Assembly: GCA_018653605.1 (NCBI GenBank) | Contig: JABHYY010000034.1 | Coordinates: 1-60,521 of the forward strand | Source: an archaeon | GTDB lineage: Archaea; Nanobdellota; Nanobdellia; SCGC-AAA011-G17; GW2011-AR17 | Direction of reading: 5' to 3' | Length of the DNA: 60,521 bases | Shown: in pieces, positions 27,087 through 31,663 of the stretch | Numbering within the stretch: the first letter of the stretch is position 1 | How the letters are laid out: every line of letters begins with the position of its first letter | Position numbers and translations under genes: made by a program | The notes under the pieces: generated by a model | Told to the model about the DNA's origin: nothing | Database searches by the model: none | The model's input: the letters and a program-made list of their open reading frames with translations, nothing else

Positions 27087-27131
27087 GGGTTTTAGATAGT
27101 GAGCGAATGGAGGGAATAGTTTTTAAGAAAA
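27087..27131. repeat. Cassette junction Z (left end of cassette 0, degenerate)
   Basis: Holds the loop-type motif GAGCGAATGGAG (27101-27112) and the inner arm TTTTTAAGAAAA (27120-27131), exactly complementary to 27486-27497 at the other end of cassette 0. The outer box is eroded (GTTTTAGAT). Confidence 0.55.
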
Positions 27132-27145
27132 TGGGTTGGGGGGAT

Positions 27146-27442
27146 TTATTGTAAATACTTACCAAAAATTGTTGTAAGTTCTGTTTCTATCCTGTCTACA
27201 AGAGGTTTATGTTCTCCTAATATTCTAACATGAATGTCTATTTTTAATTCAGGTTCTGAGGTTTCTTGTTCACAAAGGAATACTGTACATCCATAGATAT
27301 GTCCAAGTAAACTAGGATCATTAGTAGGAATCTGTTGGCCTTGATTTTTTCTAATATATCCATCAAATATATTGCTAACTACTAAATATTCATGTTCAGA
27401 ATTACATCGAAGATCAAATCCTGCTTTTTCAATTTGTGCCAT
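27146..27442 (-). CDS. Cassette 0 gene: hypothetical protein
   Basis: 98 residues (MAQIEKAGFDLRCNSEHEYLV). Alternating hydrophobic strands and a helix, ending in RIETELTTIFGKYLQ; the shape suggests a small alpha/beta sandwich, not recognised. TATTAATTAG about 26 bases upstream of the ATG gives it its own promoter. It runs opposite to most other cassette genes. Confidence 0.55.
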   Translation of the reverse strand: MAQIEKAGFDLRCNSEHEYLVVSNIFDGYIRKNQGQQIPTNDPSLLGHIYGCTVFLCEQETSEPELKIDIHVRILGEHKPLVDRIETELTTIFGKYLQ

Positions 27443-27485
27443 AAATTTGGTTTCTAACTACTAATTAATAAATCTTTGGGTGGGG

Positions 27486-27588
27486 TTTTCTTAAAAATTG
27501 CGTACAACCTTGTTAGTTGCGTCTGCAAGACCAAGGGTTAGTGCAACGGTCGGCAAAGCCGAAACCCGCAGAGTTAAGAAAAAAGTCC
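27486..27588. repeat. Cassette junction A
   Basis: Order: inner arm of cassette 0 (27486-27497); GTACAAC box, CTT spacer, GTTAGTTGC box (27512-27520); a hairpin closed by TCTGC/GCAGA (27522-27572) with nested GGGTT/AACCC and TCGGC-AAA-GCCGA; inner arm of cassette 1 (27574-27588). The spacer is CTT where most junctions have GAT. Confidence 0.7.
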
Positions 27589-27624
27589 GTTAACTTTATA
27601 TTCTGTTCCAATTTATTCTTTTAT

Positions 27625-28146
27625 ATGAGTTTTTCAAATAAAGATAGAGAATTTATGAATCTTGCTTTAGATGAAGCGAGAAAAGCATTAGATAATGGAG
27701 ATTATCCTGTTGGTGCAGTTCTTGTTATTAATGGAAAGTTAATTGAAAAAACAAGAAATTCTCTTTATTCTGGAAAAGACTGGGTTTCTCATGCTGAATC
27801 AAATTTAATTAGAAAATGTTCCCCAATAATAAAAGAAGAAATCAAATCTAATAATTCAAAAGTAGAATTATTTACAACATTAGAACCTTGTCTTATGTGT
27901 TTAGGTACTTCGATTTTAAATAGAATCTCTAGAATTGTTTTTTCATGTCCTGATCCGCATGGTGGTGCAACAACTTTAGATAAACAGAGTTTATCTGATT
28001 GGTATAATCGAAAATGGCCAATTATTGAAGGGGGGCTATTTAAAGATGAATCTTATGATTTAATGATTGATTTTATGAAAAAACAAAACACTGATTCATG
28101 GAACAGAATATTGAAAATGTATGAAGATATGCATAAAGATTGGTAA
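27625..28146 (+). CDS. Cassette 1 gene: cytidine/guanine deaminase-family protein
   Basis: 173 residues from the ATG at 27625, 26.5 bases after the centre of CTTTATAT. Zinc-dependent deaminase signature: HAESN (zinc His and catalytic Glu) and EPCLMCLGTSIL (two zinc Cys). The N-terminal FMNLALDEARKALDNGDYPVGAVLV is typical of the TadA/guanine deaminase group. The substrate could be a free nucleobase, nucleoside or tRNA adenosine. Its flanking arms are a perfect 15-base inverted repeat (27574-27588 and 28147-28161). Confidence 0.87.
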   Translation: MSFSNKDREFMNLALDEARKALDNGDYPVGAVLVINGKLIEKTRNSLYSGKDWVSHAESNLIRKCSPIIKEEIKSNNSKVELFTTLEPCLMCLGTSILNRISRIVFSCPDPHGGATTLDKQSLSDWYNRKWPIIEGGLFKDESYDLMIDFMKKQNTDSWNRILKMYEDMHKDW

Positions 28147-28223
28147 GGACTTTTTTCTTAATTGCAACTAACGATGTTGGGTGACCCGAAGGGCGAATTC
28201 TGAAAGAATTCGAGTTGGTGTCC
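28147..28223. repeat. Cassette junction B
   Basis: Inner arm of cassette 1 (28147-28161), GCAACTAAC box (28164-28172), GAT, GTTGGGTGA box (28176-28184), a hairpin CGAATTC-tgaaa-GAATTCG (28194-28212), and the inner arm GGTGTCC of cassette 2 (28217-28223). GCAACTAAC is the exact complement of GTTAGTTGC in junction A. Confidence 0.75.
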
Positions 28224-28259
28224 GATAAATTAAAATACTTTGTTTACTTCTATTTTTTT

Positions 28260-28517
28260 ATGGCTTTGAATGAATTAAAAAAAGAGGTTGCTAAGTTTGA
28301 AAAGAAAGTTGGTTTTGATAAGACTAAATCCTCTGAACTTCTAAAAATGTTGCAGAAGGAATTAACAATCTTAAAGAAGGCTAAAAATAAAAAAGTTAAA
28401 GATCATCAATTGATTGATATCCAAGTTTTACTTCTTCAACTTGCAAATAGATATAAAACCAACTTGAACTTAGAATGGAAGAAACAGTGGAATAAAAAGC
28501 AGAAATATAAAAAGTGA
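28260..28517 (+). CDS. Cassette 2 gene: MazG-like helical protein (degenerate)
   Basis: 85 residues from MALNELKKEVAKFEKKVGF. The length, the helical pattern and the end (LIDIQVLLLQLANRYKTNLNLEWKKQWNKK) look like the MazG-type nucleotide pyrophosphohydrolase fold. The metal-binding acidic pattern EExxE...ExxD is mostly lost (QKELTIL, HQLID), so activity is doubtful. A TTAAAA box about 27 bases upstream serves as promoter. Confidence 0.55.
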   Translation: MALNELKKEVAKFEKKVGFDKTKSSELLKMLQKELTILKKAKNKKVKDHQLIDIQVLLLQLANRYKTNLNLEWKKQWNKKQKYKK

Positions 28518-28518
28518 A

Positions 28519-28633
28519 GGACACCTATTTCACCCAACGATGTTAGGTTCCCTCTCGAGATAATGAGCGAAGTGAACACTCCTTGAATGTCAACTGATTG
28601 AATTGAGTGAAGGAGAAGTTAAAAAGGAAAATT
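28519..28633. repeat. Cassette junction C
   Basis: Inner arm GGACACC of cassette 2 (28519-28525), TCACCCAAC box (28530-28538, exact complement of GTTGGGTGA in B), GAT, GTTAGGTTC box (28542-28550), an insert with TGAGCGAAGTGAAC and a CTCCTT/AAGGAG stem, then the A-rich inner arm of cassette 3 (28619-28633). Confidence 0.75.
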
Positions 28634-28661
28634 TATAAATAATCTATAAATCTCCTAAAAT

Positions 28662-28967
28662 ATGATAAATGAGGATATTGAAATACTTTTTGCAAAACTT
28701 CCTGAAGGTTCTAGGTTTAGAGAAGTAGATAATATTGAAATGATTGCTGAATTTTTTACTTGGTCTGGTATTGCTTGGCATCATTTGGTTTTATGTGAAA
28801 CAGAAGAAGGTACTGTTACTTGCCATTTGGCTTGTAAGGACTGGAAGTTGGAATATATTCTTCAACGTGGAGGATATGAAATAGATGTTTCAAATTGGAG
28901 AGGAAAAAGTCTTAGATTTAGGGAAGTTTATAATAAACCTTCTGATCAACATTATTTTATTAATTAA
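28662..28967 (+). CDS. Cassette 3 gene: hypothetical protein
   Basis: 101 residues, acidic N-terminus, with CETEEGTVTCHLACKDW in the middle and an amphipathic strand-rich second half. Not recognised. TTTATAAA is centred 26.5 bases before the ATG, predicting a leaderless mRNA from a promoter inside the cassette. Confidence 0.55.
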   Translation: MINEDIEILFAKLPEGSRFREVDNIEMIAEFFTWSGIAWHHLVLCETEEGTVTCHLACKDWKLEYILQRGGYEIDVSNWRGKSLRFREVYNKPSDQHYFIN

Positions 28968-29074
28968 TTTCTTTTTTAATTGTGTACAATGATGTTGTAT
29001 TCCTCTCGAGATAGTGAACGGAGTGAACGATTTCCTGAGAGGTCCGAGCATAGTGAGAAAGTCAGAGAAGATTC
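28966..29074. repeat. Cassette junction D
   Basis: Inner arm of cassette 3 (28966-28979), GTGTACAAT box (28982-28990), GAT, GTTGTATTC box (28994-29002), a hairpin closed by CCTCTC/GAGAGG (29002-29042) with GAACGGAGTGAAC in the loop, and the inner arm of cassette 4 (29062-29074). Its left outer box does not match that of junction C, so this junction has drifted or was formed by an irregular event. Confidence 0.65.
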
Positions 29075-29110
29075 GTAAACCTTATATTGAATTAAGTATT
29101 AATAGTTTAT

Positions 29111-29314
29111 ATGGATGAACTATATCAAATACTAACCTTTACTTCAGATTATCTGGGGTGGGGAATTTCTATTGGAAGTTCTGTAGCTATGTTGGGAATA
29201 GTGTATAAATCTGCAAGAGAAAATAATAGGTGGAGGGAAGATAATCGAGAATTTTTACAGAGTCTTCCTAGATTAGAAAAGAGAGTTGATAATCCTAGAA
29301 TTTTTTCTGATTGA
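29111..29314 (+). CDS. Cassette 4 gene: small membrane protein
   Basis: 67 residues with one membrane helix (YLGWGISIGSSVAMLGIVY) and a charged, basic cytoplasmic tail. TTATAT is centred about 26 bases upstream. The TGA stop overlaps the outer box of junction E. Function unknown. Confidence 0.55.
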   Translation: MDELYQILTFTSDYLGWGISIGSSVAMLGIVYKSARENNRWREDNREFLQSLPRLEKRVDNPRIFSD

Positions 29315-29421
29315 GTCTAACGATGTTAGGTTCCCTGTCCTCGATATTTTGGAGTGAAACGGAAAAATATCAGAGCTGACAGGTCCGGAATCCCGGAGGG
29401 ATGGAGGAAGTTTAAGGAGGG
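29298..29421. repeat. Cassette junction E
   Basis: Inner arm of cassette 4 (29298-29310), GAGTCTAAC box (29313-29321), GAT, GTTAGGTTC box (29325-29333), a long stem with CCTGTC/GACAGG and GATATTTT/AAAATATC around GGAGTGAAACGGAA, then the inner arm TTTAAGGAGGG of cassette 5 (29411-29421). Confidence 0.75.
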
Positions 29422-29467
29422 AGTTTTTGTTACTACCAAAAAGTTTATAAATAATGGTTTTTTCCTA

Positions 29468-29758
29468 ATGAAGATGACAATCAGAGGACAAACACCAACT
29501 ATTATAGAACTTGTAAATACAGTGGAGTCTTTAGGTATTCTAAAAAAAACAGAAGCAGAAACCAATGCTTTGCTTGATTCAATGGGTGCAAGAGCAGAAT
29601 TTGATCAGTTTAATAGATATGTGAGAGATACTGTTGGTGGTGCAGCAGAGCTTGTTTATGCATATGCTAGTGAAGAAGGAATTGGTTACTTTGCTGAATT
29701 GTTTACTAAAGTTAAAGGTAAACCATTTGATCAAGACGAAGTGGTAGTTAGAAGATAA
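29468..29758 (+). CDS. Cassette 5 gene: hypothetical protein
   Basis: 96 residues from the ATG at 29468 (MKMTIRGQTPTIIELVNTVESLGI). The upstream in-frame stretch is part of the junction structure and is rejected. Helical, with an N-terminal half like a small DNA- or protein-binding helix pair. TTTATAAA lies about 20 bases upstream. Not recognised. Confidence 0.55.
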   Translation: MKMTIRGQTPTIIELVNTVESLGILKKTEAETNALLDSMGARAEFDQFNRYVRDTVGGAAELVYAYASEEGIGYFAELFTKVKGKPFDQDEVVVRR

Positions 29759-29806
29759 ACTTTTCTATTTTATTCGAACAACTTTAGTTGTAAGTCTATA
29801 TATTTT

Positions 29807-29870
29807 CCCCTACTTAAATTGAACCTAACGATGTTGGGTACTGAGCGAAGCGAAGGAACAGTAAATTTCT
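29807..29870. repeat. Cassette junction F
   Basis: Inner arm of cassette 5 (29807-29818), GAACCTAAC box (29821-29829, exact complement of GTTAGGTTC in E), GAT, GTTGGGTAC box (29833-29841), a short hairpin TACTG/CAGTA around AGCGAAGCGAAGG, and the inner arm AAATTTCT of cassette 6 (29863-29870). Confidence 0.78.
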
Positions 29871-29882
29871 AAGGGAGGGAGG

Positions 29883-30224
29883 TTAAACTTCCTTAAATTC
29901 TATTTCAATAGTTTTAAAGAATTCTTGTGTAAATTTGACTGCTGTATCAACATCAAAATTCTTACAAGTGTAAATATCAGCACTGAAGAATGGAAATGGC
30001 TTATCCCAAGCATAAAAATGACAACCAGAAGATTCCCAATGTATCCATCCTGCCCATCCAAATTTAGATGAAAGATGAGTAACTGGTTCAGTTAGTGTTT
30101 TCATGTCTAATGCAGTTGATAACTTGCTTAGATATTCCTTTATTTCAGAATCAGTAATTTCTTTTTGACATTTGCCTTCAATAACTAATCTTTGTCGGAA
30201 TATCGTAGGAGATAAATCTTTCAT
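29883..30224 (-). CDS. Cassette 6 gene: hypothetical protein
   Basis: 113 residues from MKDLSPTIFRQRLVIEGKCQ. It has a clear fold-like pattern, with GWAGWIHWESSGCHFYAWDKPFPFFSADIYTCK rich in aromatic residues. Its layout (start, ESSGCH segment, C-terminal helix with VKFTQEFFK) is reminiscent of S-adenosylmethionine decarboxylase-like small proteins, where an ESS-type segment self-cleaves, but this is a weak resemblance. Opposite in direction to its neighbours, with a TTAAGATATAG box 26 bases upstream. Confidence 0.58.
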   Translation of the reverse strand: MKDLSPTIFRQRLVIEGKCQKEITDSEIKEYLSKLSTALDMKTLTEPVTHLSSKFGWAGWIHWESSGCHFYAWDKPFPFFSADIYTCKNFDVDTAVKFTQEFFKTIEIEFKEV

Positions 30225-30267
30225 ATATAACAAGAATTAACTATATCTTAAATGCTTTTGGGTGGGA

Positions 30268-30361
30268 AGAAATTTATTGTACCCAACGATGTTGTGTGAC
30301 TTTCTGGAGTGGAACGGAAGAAAGCTCGGAGAACCTAAGGTTCAGAGAGAGTTAAGAATTT
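30268..30361. repeat. Cassette junction G
   Basis: Inner arm AGAAATTT of cassette 6 (30268-30275), GTACCCAAC box (30279-30287, exact complement of GTTGGGTAC in F), GAT, GTTGTGTGA box (30291-30299), a hairpin CTTTC/GAAAG around TGGAGTGGAACGG, a GAACC-TAA-GGTTC stem, and the inner arm TTAAGAATTT of cassette 7 (30352-30361). Confidence 0.78.
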
Positions 30362-30402
30362 GACCGGAAAATATATAAGAAAGAAGAAAATTCCTTGCAA
30401 AT

Positions 30403-30657
30403 ATGAAAAAAACTGTTTATGAAGGTAAAAATGATGGCTTATTTGATTACACTAATTTTCTTCTATTTTTAGAAAGTAATGCTGGAGAAAGGGTAATAGA
30501 AAGAGTTGGAGAGGTATTTGTTTTTCATTTAACTTCTTTAGGAGTAACTGTAAAATATAATGCACCATATCATATTAAAAATTACATAAGTATAAATGCA
30601 TTTGGTGAAGAAAAACAAATTGGAAAACTAGAAGAAATGATTAGGGAAAATTCTTAA
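30403..30657 (+). CDS. Cassette 7 gene: hypothetical protein
   Basis: 84 residues (MKKTVYEGKNDGLFDYTNFLLFLESNAGE), mixed alpha/beta, unrecognised. An ATATATAA box is about 28 bases upstream. Its stop codon lies inside the right inner arm. It is the cassette nearest the recombinase. Confidence 0.55.
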   Translation: MKKTVYEGKNDGLFDYTNFLLFLESNAGERVIERVGEVFVFHLTSLGVTVKYNAPYHIKNYISINAFGEEKQIGKLEEMIRENS

Positions 30658-30668
30658 TTTCACACAAG
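30648..30668. repeat. Terminal junction H (right end of cassette 7)
   Basis: Inner arm AAATTCTTAA (30648-30657, exact complement of 30352-30361), then TCACACAA (30660-30667, complement of TTGTGTGA in G) and G in place of the final C. The next boundary reads ATTGGAT, a weak GTTRRRY. It marks the border between the array and the recombinase region. Confidence 0.65.
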
Positions 30669-30841
30669 GGTCATTGGATGTATTTACTTAGATTTTATAC
30701 TCTGACAACTATAAAACACCTAAATTCTAAATCTTATACATTAACATATTTTCATAAAACATGTAAACTTTCCATAAAACCTGAAAGATTTTCAGATTTT
30801 TTACACCTGTTATTATAAATTGATTTTTCTAAATCTTATTT
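30669..30841. other. Candidate attI-like / promoter region of the recombinase
   Basis: AT-rich region holding two near-direct repeats 20 bases apart (TCATAAAACATGTAAAC at 30752-30768 and CCATAAAACCTGAAAGA at 30772-30788) and the dyad CTGAAA-gat-TTTCAG (30781-30795). In integrons the primary site beside the integrase gene also carries direct repeats bound by the enzyme. The role here is inferred; these could equally be operator sites. Confidence 0.4.
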
Positions 30842-31663
30842 ATGGACTTAATACTAAATATGCAGAAAGAAATGTCAAGAAGAAGGTATAGCCAAAGAAC
30901 TGTTGACTCTTATTCTGACTGTGTTACAAAATTCCTAGAATTTTCAAAAAAAACCCCTAGAAAAATAACTAAAAAGGATGTTCGACTATATTTAACAAAA
31001 TTAGATGAAAGAAATCTTGCAAGTAGTACTATGAATGTGTATTTGCAAGCGATTAGATTTGCTCTTGAAAACATTTTGAATAAACATTTTATCCTAAGGA
31101 TTCCTCTCTCTAAAAAGTCAAAAAGACTGCCTGATTTTCTTACTAAAAAGGAGGTTAAACAACTGTTTAGTGTTATTAAGAATAAAAAACACCTTTTGGT
31201 TGTAAAGTTAATTTATTCAGCAGGATTGAGAGTTGGTGAGGCAGTAAAACTGAGAATAAGGGATTTAGACCTTGAAAGTGGCATTGGTAAGGTTGTTCAA
31301 GGCAAAGGAAACAAAGATAGAATGTTTATTATTGCAAAGAGCATAAGAAAGGAATTACAGCACTATATATACAGTGAAAAATTGGATTTTGGAGACTTTT
31401 TGTTTCAGGGTCGGAGAACACACTTTTCTGTTAGATCTGTCCAGGAAGTGGTTAAAAAGGCTGGAAAGAGGTCTAAAATACCTAAAAATGTCCATCCTCA
31501 TGTTTTAAGGCATTCATTTGCAACACACCTTATTGAGGATAATTGTAGTCTTTCAACTTTACAGCTTTTAATGGGTCATAAAAGTCCTGAAACTACAATG
31601 GTGTATGTTCATTTAGCTAAACTTAGCTCTTTAGATGTAACTAGTCCTTTAGATGGTTTATAG
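30842..31663 (+). CDS. Tyrosine recombinase (Xer/IntI-like)
   Basis: 273 residues. The SAM-like N-terminal core-binding domain (RRRYSQRTVDSYSDCVTKFLEF) is followed by the catalytic domain with R130 (SAGLRVGE), K155 (GKGNKDR), H220-x-x-R223 (HPHVLRHSFATHL), H246 (MGHKSPETT) and the nucleophile Y255. The C-terminal TSPLDGL closely resembles the SPLDAL tail of integron integrases, and archaeal XerA usually ends differently. However, the roughly 35-residue IntI-specific insert between the Lys and the HxxR motifs is missing. It lies directly beside the cassette array and points away from it. Confidence 0.92.
   Translation: MDLILNMQKEMSRRRYSQRTVDSYSDCVTKFLEFSKKTPRKITKKDVRLYLTKLDERNLASSTMNVYLQAIRFALENILNKHFILRIPLSKKSKRLPDFLTKKEVKQLFSVIKNKKHLLVVKLIYSAGLRVGEAVKLRIRDLDLESGIGKVVQGKGNKDRMFIIAKSIRKELQHYIYSEKLDFGDFLFQGRRTHFSVRSVQEVVKKAGKRSKIPKNVHPHVLRHSFATHLIEDNCSLSTLQLLMGHKSPETTMVYVHLAKLSSLDVTSPLDGL

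Follow-up and report, generated by a model that had tools for sequence, protein, structure and literature searches.

What kind of system gathers small genes into a row beside a tyrosine recombinase gene in a gene-poor archaeon, and is it an integron? The question was raised by the region 27087-30668 of a 60,521-nucleotide stretch of archaeal DNA (contig JABHYY010000034.1, assembly GCA_018653605.1; lineage Nanobdellota), which is called the window here. The original prediction had read this region as an archaeal integron-like cassette array with a new type of recombination site. The row of units was confirmed as a real array and that interpretation was supported, with movement of the units themselves being probable from comparison of related loci. 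We consider it highly probable that the array belongs to an integron-like gene-capture system of DPANN archaea, which would act on a folded single strand and whose site architecture is unlike attC. It appears to be a previously unrecognised route for these archaea to collect and shuffle genes. Beyond what had been predicted, the units were found to pair by their own ends, to border on an attI-like site, to share a single crossover point and to be accompanied by a recombinase that is neither IntI nor XerA proper.

Each unit begins with a 5-6 nt spacer, TTRNNNN, hairpins and an arm, usually holds one open reading frame (ORF), and ends with the complementary arm (arm') and ATTGNNNNYAA; the crossover point is YAA|N, the bar marking the cut. 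In folding calculations the right end of a unit paired with the left end of that same unit, through a core hairpin and inner arms, so that a unit is best viewed with its ends joined into a circle: arm'-AAT(T)G-NNNN-YAA | 5-6 nt spacer-TTR-NNNN-variable hairpins-GTT-arm. This pairing was kept with different letters per unit in about 20 genomes.

Looking naively for complementary ends gave an excess of chance matches, a pattern search across the order was noisy in AT-rich genomes and served only to locate clusters, and an early chain detector did no better than its control at several loci. Instead, an unbiased junction motif was used, in which the pairing letters were left out and consecutive junctions were then checked for complementarity, thereby avoiding circular reasoning. 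All four positions were complementary in 31 of 55 consecutive junction pairs and three of four in a further 7, against random expectations of 3% and 9%. The set of 55 included a few loci duplicating one genome, and duplicates were dropped for a test on 49 distinct circle junctions. In the seven-pair core of these, 89.8% of cells were paired (71.5 +/- 1.6 when shuffled), both partners had changed in 85 cells (34 +/- 5.7 after shuffling) and covariation was 0.527 (0.194 +/- 0.022 shuffled; 0/500), a signal lost when the partner was slid by 1-3 columns. Own ends out-folded 19 swapped ends in 50 of 57 units, and the inner arms alone, which had no part in detection, were best with their own partner in 37 of the 57. 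The strand carrying YAA|N gave the more stable fold in 48/57 units (p 2e-8; interior control 30/48). A site kept by own-strand pairing, with one strand favoured, as in integrons, was found here by computation only.

The units of the window, the attI-like half-site and the recombinase gene are as follows.

27087-27507, plus strand: unit 0, eroded; minus-strand ORF 27146-27442; right end ATTGCGTACAA intact
27508-28171, plus strand: unit 1, CCTTG.TTAGTTGC ... GCAACTAA; TadA-type deaminase ORF 27625-28146; own ends best of 20
28172-28537, plus strand: unit 2, CGATG.TTGGGTGA ... TCACCCAA; small ORF 28260-28517
28538-28989, plus strand: unit 3, CGATG.TTAGGTTCC ... TGTGTACAA; ORF 28662-28967; clean own-end core pairing lost
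28990-29320, plus strand: unit 4, TGATG.TTGTATTCC ... GAGTCTAA; ORF 29111-29314; clean own-end core pairing lost
29321-29828, plus strand: unit 5, CGATG.TTAGGTTC ... GAACCTAA; ORF 29468-29758
29829-30286, plus strand: unit 6, CGATG.TTGGGTAC ... GTACCCAA; minus-strand ORF 29883-30224, S-adenosylmethionine (AdoMet) decarboxylase-type
30287-30667, plus strand: unit 7, CGATG.TTGTGTGA ... TCACACAA; ORF 30403-30657
30668-30690, plus strand: attI-like half-site gggtcATTGGATGTATT, the recombinase end of the array
30842-31663, plus strand: tyrosine recombinase, 273 residues, of a DPANN clade apart from XerA proper; IntI-specific insert absent

Eight one-ORF units had been predicted; seven consecutive units (27508-30667) proved good, while the eighth, unit 0 to their left, is eroded, with no TTGTACGC found upstream as its left core. 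The sole pairing element on that side is the inner arm TTTTAAGAAAA at 27121, and the inner arms of unit 0 do pair on folding. Unit 1 pairs through GCAACTAA...TTAGTTGC and a 15-bp inner arm, and unit 2 through TCACCCAA...TTGGGTGA and GGACACC/GGTGTCC. When all right ends of the window were folded against all left ends, the diagonal of the energy matrix was strongest for most units and weak for units 3 and 4.

Junctions of the form YAA(C/T)-NN-TGTTR lie at 27505, 28169, 28535, 28987, 29318, 29826 and 30284; unit 7, the last, runs to 30667. The predicted shared junction YAAC-GAT-GTTR is exact at 28169, 28535, 29318, 29826 and 30284; the copies at 27505 (CAAC-CTT-GTTA) and 28987 (CAAT-GAT-GTTG) are variants, and the final junction at 30658-30680, TCACACAA|gggtcATTGG, is of the attI type. 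The three-base GAT spacing needs correcting: the functional border in the window is YAA|CGATGTTR, with a loop of 5 nt (most relatives have 6 nt) that is carried with the unit on its right. Genome-wide the exact 11-mer occurs 5 times in the 961-kb assembly, against 5 + 1 for the backwards control pattern, and this count was rejected as evidence. All five copies lie within 2.1 kb on a single strand, one per unit border, and this clustering, which alone counts, is not given by chance.

The predicted tyrosine recombinase is indeed present beside the array (30842-31663), whose right end is the attI-like site 5' of its gene. The enzyme retains the family's catalytic residues (R130, H220/R223, H246 and Y255) and belongs to a clade found, at 46-58% identity, in many genomes across the same order; XerA proper makes up a second group, with an identity of about 37%. 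A clade profile splits the DPANN recombinases, with at least 335 bits in about 71/371 genomes and at most 304 in the rest, and a branch supported at 100/98 separates the clade from XerA proper; its position on the IntI side of the tree is weak (73/44) and not to be relied on. The XerA equivalog NF040815 scored 215.9 bits, below its cut-off of 220. The predicted structure (predicted local distance difference test, pLDDT, 86.5) has the integron integrase IntI4 (2a3v) as its nearest solved fold, followed by XerA. Residues 186-234 of IntI4, a 49-residue insert, have no counterpart in the window recombinase; none of the proteins of 40 genomes exceeded the TIGR02249 cut-off, and its positions about 183-233 were unmatched in the relatives. 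By sequence, the recombinase is not a canonical IntI, being without the IntI-specific insert, and is distinct from archaeal XerA.

Paired arrays were found in loci of this clade, and in 0/115 others: 0/20 loci of XerA proper, 0/80 IMG/VR loci and 0/15 bacterial loci. The recombinases of the viral contigs (IMG/VR) were distant ones. Elsewhere in the window's genome a second, distant tyrosine recombinase was seen (27% identity; G000:C11:5687-6433), while this assembly, which is 93% complete, yielded no XerA proper. Upstream of XerA-type-scored recombinases at three other loci (L287 at G228:C1, L282 and L286) lie sites like AATTGAACTTAA-caccta-TTAAACGAA, which could be either dif sites or something intermediate between these and the cassette system.

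An attI-like consensus, YAA-CNNNNN-ATATRCGAA, occurs in most loci of the clade, usually some 110-310 nt 5' of the recombinase gene. In the loci L067/L102, L068/L109 and L069/L108 the site lies 3' of the gene and mirrored, and the contigs end there; the gene is flipped relative to the array. Comparison of loci showed an attI-like site beside the recombinase gene with cassettes inserted there, as in integrons.

Arrays of like build with other letters stand upstream of clade recombinase genes in relatives, whose named members include Candidatus Woesearchaeota, Nanoarchaeota and Pacearchaeota. In most of them the spacer is 6 nt long and varies within one array (TTCCTG, TGAATG, TCACTG, TATGTG), that of the attI in L054 being CTCTTT. 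For this reason the window's own motif, when searched in the family, gave single, mostly unrelated matches. The original prediction had proposed comparing relatives for gain or loss of whole units, and the comparison came out in its favour. A homologous unit in L056 and L124 aligns exactly from TGCCTGTTA to YAA between unrelated flanks, and both of its end arms differ jointly between the two loci, TTATGTGC/GCACATAA against TTAAATGC/GCATTTAA; L070 and L142 share a second homologous unit, and both have exact borders and different neighbours. An ORF-less unit is present three times in L057, two copies in tandem and one beside the attI, each with its own TACTTG spacer, which places the cut at YAA|spacer. 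Among the close relatives L114, L115 and L117 (recombinases 88-94% identical in nucleotides), as well as L122, the sequence is common on the right of the cut (CAGTATATAACCTAAAG...) up to and including the recombinase, and unrelated to the left of YAA|, where the content has wholly changed. Neither a conserved order with identical junctions in distant relatives nor junctions spread through the genome apart from units was seen. Many contigs break off a few hundred bases or less from the recombinase, frequently towards the array, which is what variable arrays would lead one to expect. In the nearest relative, the array stands at the end of one contig (L143; G003:C25, ending at 140438) and the recombinase with its attI at the end of another (L104; G003:C7, ending at 170789), and its assembly seems to be broken exactly at the array.

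Across loci the units mostly hold one ORF, 35 on the plus strand and 29 on the minus strand. Of the functions first suggested, the deaminase of unit 1 was borne out (PF00383, 61.5 bits), while the MazG-like assignment of unit 2 was too weak to keep (E 0.014, 15 bits against a cut-off of 148); the minus-strand product of unit 6 matched PF02675 (AdoMet decarboxylase-type, 32.2 bits). The cargo includes TadA-type deaminase, AdoMet decarboxylase-type, pyridoxal phosphate (PLP) enzyme, HAD hydrolase and metallo-beta-lactamase fold proteins, together with SnoaL-like, DndB, HEPN-like and helix-turn-helix (HTH) proteins and many unknowns. Different units (L116 3825-4401 and L122 1918-2217) have a common 106-nt internal block, 82-96% identical, which suggests rearrangement inside cassettes.

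How the system would work can be outlined, and it is recombination itself that we infer, through a circular intermediate, a single-strand substrate, cutting by the clade's recombinase and replicative resolution. Cassettes would be circles whose joined ends form the recombination site. One strand would fold, NNNNYAA pairing with TTRNNNN and arm' with arm, and since the letters differ between cassettes, shape rather than sequence would be recognised. The recombinase would cut at YAA|, where the hairpin meets its loop, and join the cut to the attI-like site 5' of its own gene. In bacteria, attC x attI recombination is one exchange followed by replication (PMC8946536); by analogy, a single strand would be exchanged here at one point and the reaction completed by replication, which would leave the spacer letters free to differ between sites and from attI. 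The outcome would be a row of cassettes in a single orientation, each with half a hairpin at either end. Such a folded-strand mechanism would account for variable letters with kept pairing, variable spacers, a single crossover point, a strand bias and half-hairpin ends. Comparative evidence (the L057 copies, the L056/L124 units and the turnover among L114, L115, L117 and L122) speaks for excision and insertion of cassettes.

The explanation builds on what sequence comparison and folding calculations show: the anatomy, own-end covariation, the folding strand bias, a conserved attI, units that are shared and turned over between loci, and a link with one recombinase clade. Several points weigh against it. 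The detector behind the 57 units demanded core pairing, so that the unbiased junction motif, the 49-junction covariation and the inner-arm tests are the only ones free of that selection, and base composition could be the source of part of the strand bias, given the interior control. The strict motif detected no array in many clade loci (16/20 in a second set; several cut by contig ends). The attI half in the window departs widely from the consensus of the relatives and was not picked by the site score. Finally, units 3 and 4 are without clean own-end pairing. These neighbours share a 27-nt left-end block (28551-28577 and 29002-29028; 89% identical), and together with the mismatched ends this makes a past exchange of core boxes between the two likely.

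Three other explanations were considered. In tyrosine recombinases, an exchange of two strands requires a matching overlap. The units might be classical double-strand Xer/dif-type modules, in which a duplex site ATTGNNNNYAA-N6-TTRNNNN is bound on two arms and both strands are exchanged, as in dif and pdif. The right end, ATTGNNNNYAA plus 6 nt, does have the layout of the Pyrococcus abyssi dif left arm, and the recombinase is XerA-like, close below the equivalog cut-off; yet the spacers vary within one array and from attI, the arms are unconserved in sequence but covary within a unit, the other arm has no mirror ATTG, and the inner arms and hairpins would be left without a role. We regard this as improbable. 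Slightly less probable again is a canonical integron or cluster of attC sites lacking an integrase (CALIN) of the IntI + attC kind already reported in archaea, its attC sites being unusual. In its favour are the array of one-ORF units, the attI-like site 5' of the recombinase, a crossover equal to G|TT on the complementary strand and the nearest fold; the absent IntI insert, pairing boxes that enclose 5-6 nt rather than L boxes and a terminal structure, hairpins outside the boxes and ORFs in both directions argue against it.

The units could also be an immobile row of small genes whose transcripts pair by their 5' and 3' ends as RNA, the recombinase being incidental. End pairing could act in RNA and the units are gene-sized, but 29/64 ORFs lie on the opposite strand, ORF-less units carry the same ends, unit borders are sharp homology borders between genomes, and arrays go with one recombinase clade and attI; this is the least credible of the alternatives. 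The integron-like capture system on a folded strand is preferred to all three. A wider claim, on which we are more doubtful than confident, is that cassette recombination on a folded single strand evolved separately a second time here. An Xer-derived DPANN recombinase would cut at the loop end of a hairpin made by both ends of a cassette, leaving half a site at each end of every integrated cassette, and the system would be a main platform on which these reduced genomes shuffle their genes.

For recombinases that read DNA shape instead of sequence, integrons serve as the standard example, and they are defined by the IntI insert and the attC geometry. A like job done by a shorter, Xer-like enzyme on a differently built site would reveal which parts are essential, and would bear on the origin of integrons from Xer. 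The uncultured, gene-poor DPANN archaea, with the clade in about a fifth of the genomes sampled, would gain a means of gene uptake and swapping, and the site layout offers a search rule for cassettes in existing metagenomes.

In the literature on archaeal, DPANN or integron-like systems only Ghaly et al. 2022 (PMC9668308), who reported archaeal integrons with IntI and attC, was relevant, and the search, which took in a minority of subscription papers and no preprints, turned up no account of a system of this kind. The DPANN system works like an integron, yet is not an IntI/attC integron by two testable defining features. Shared with integrons are tandem one-gene cassettes, an attI-like end adjoining a tyrosine recombinase, own-strand pairing that keeps the site with little sequence conservation, a crossover at a GTT/AAC box and diverse, mostly unknown cargo. 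The recombinase, in contrast, is without the IntI insert, ORFs run in both orientations, and the sites depart from the attC geometry R''-L''-VTS-L'-R' (VTS, variable terminal structure), upholding the earlier claim of a geometry unlike bacterial attC with an extra hairpin at the unit's left end. The paired box encloses just a 5-6 nt loop, and hairpins and a second box stand between it and the cassette body, so that an integrated unit has a half-site at each end.

Archaeal XerA/dif (PMC2958812) is alike in the size and family of the recombinase and in the ATTGNNNNYAA-N6 layout of the dif left arm, which in P. abyssi reads ATTGGATATAA-TCGGCC (PMC2958812); this likeness fits descent from, or kinship with, Xer. 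The DPANN clade is separate, however, and has many variable sites per array rather than one conserved dif. The pdif/xrs modules of Acinetobacter are likewise gene modules bounded by Xer-type sites, lying between XerC/XerD sites, often inversely oriented, and using the host XerC/XerD (PMC11705084), whereas the DPANN sites all have the same orientation, their arms covary within a unit, and the array has its own recombinase and attI next to it.

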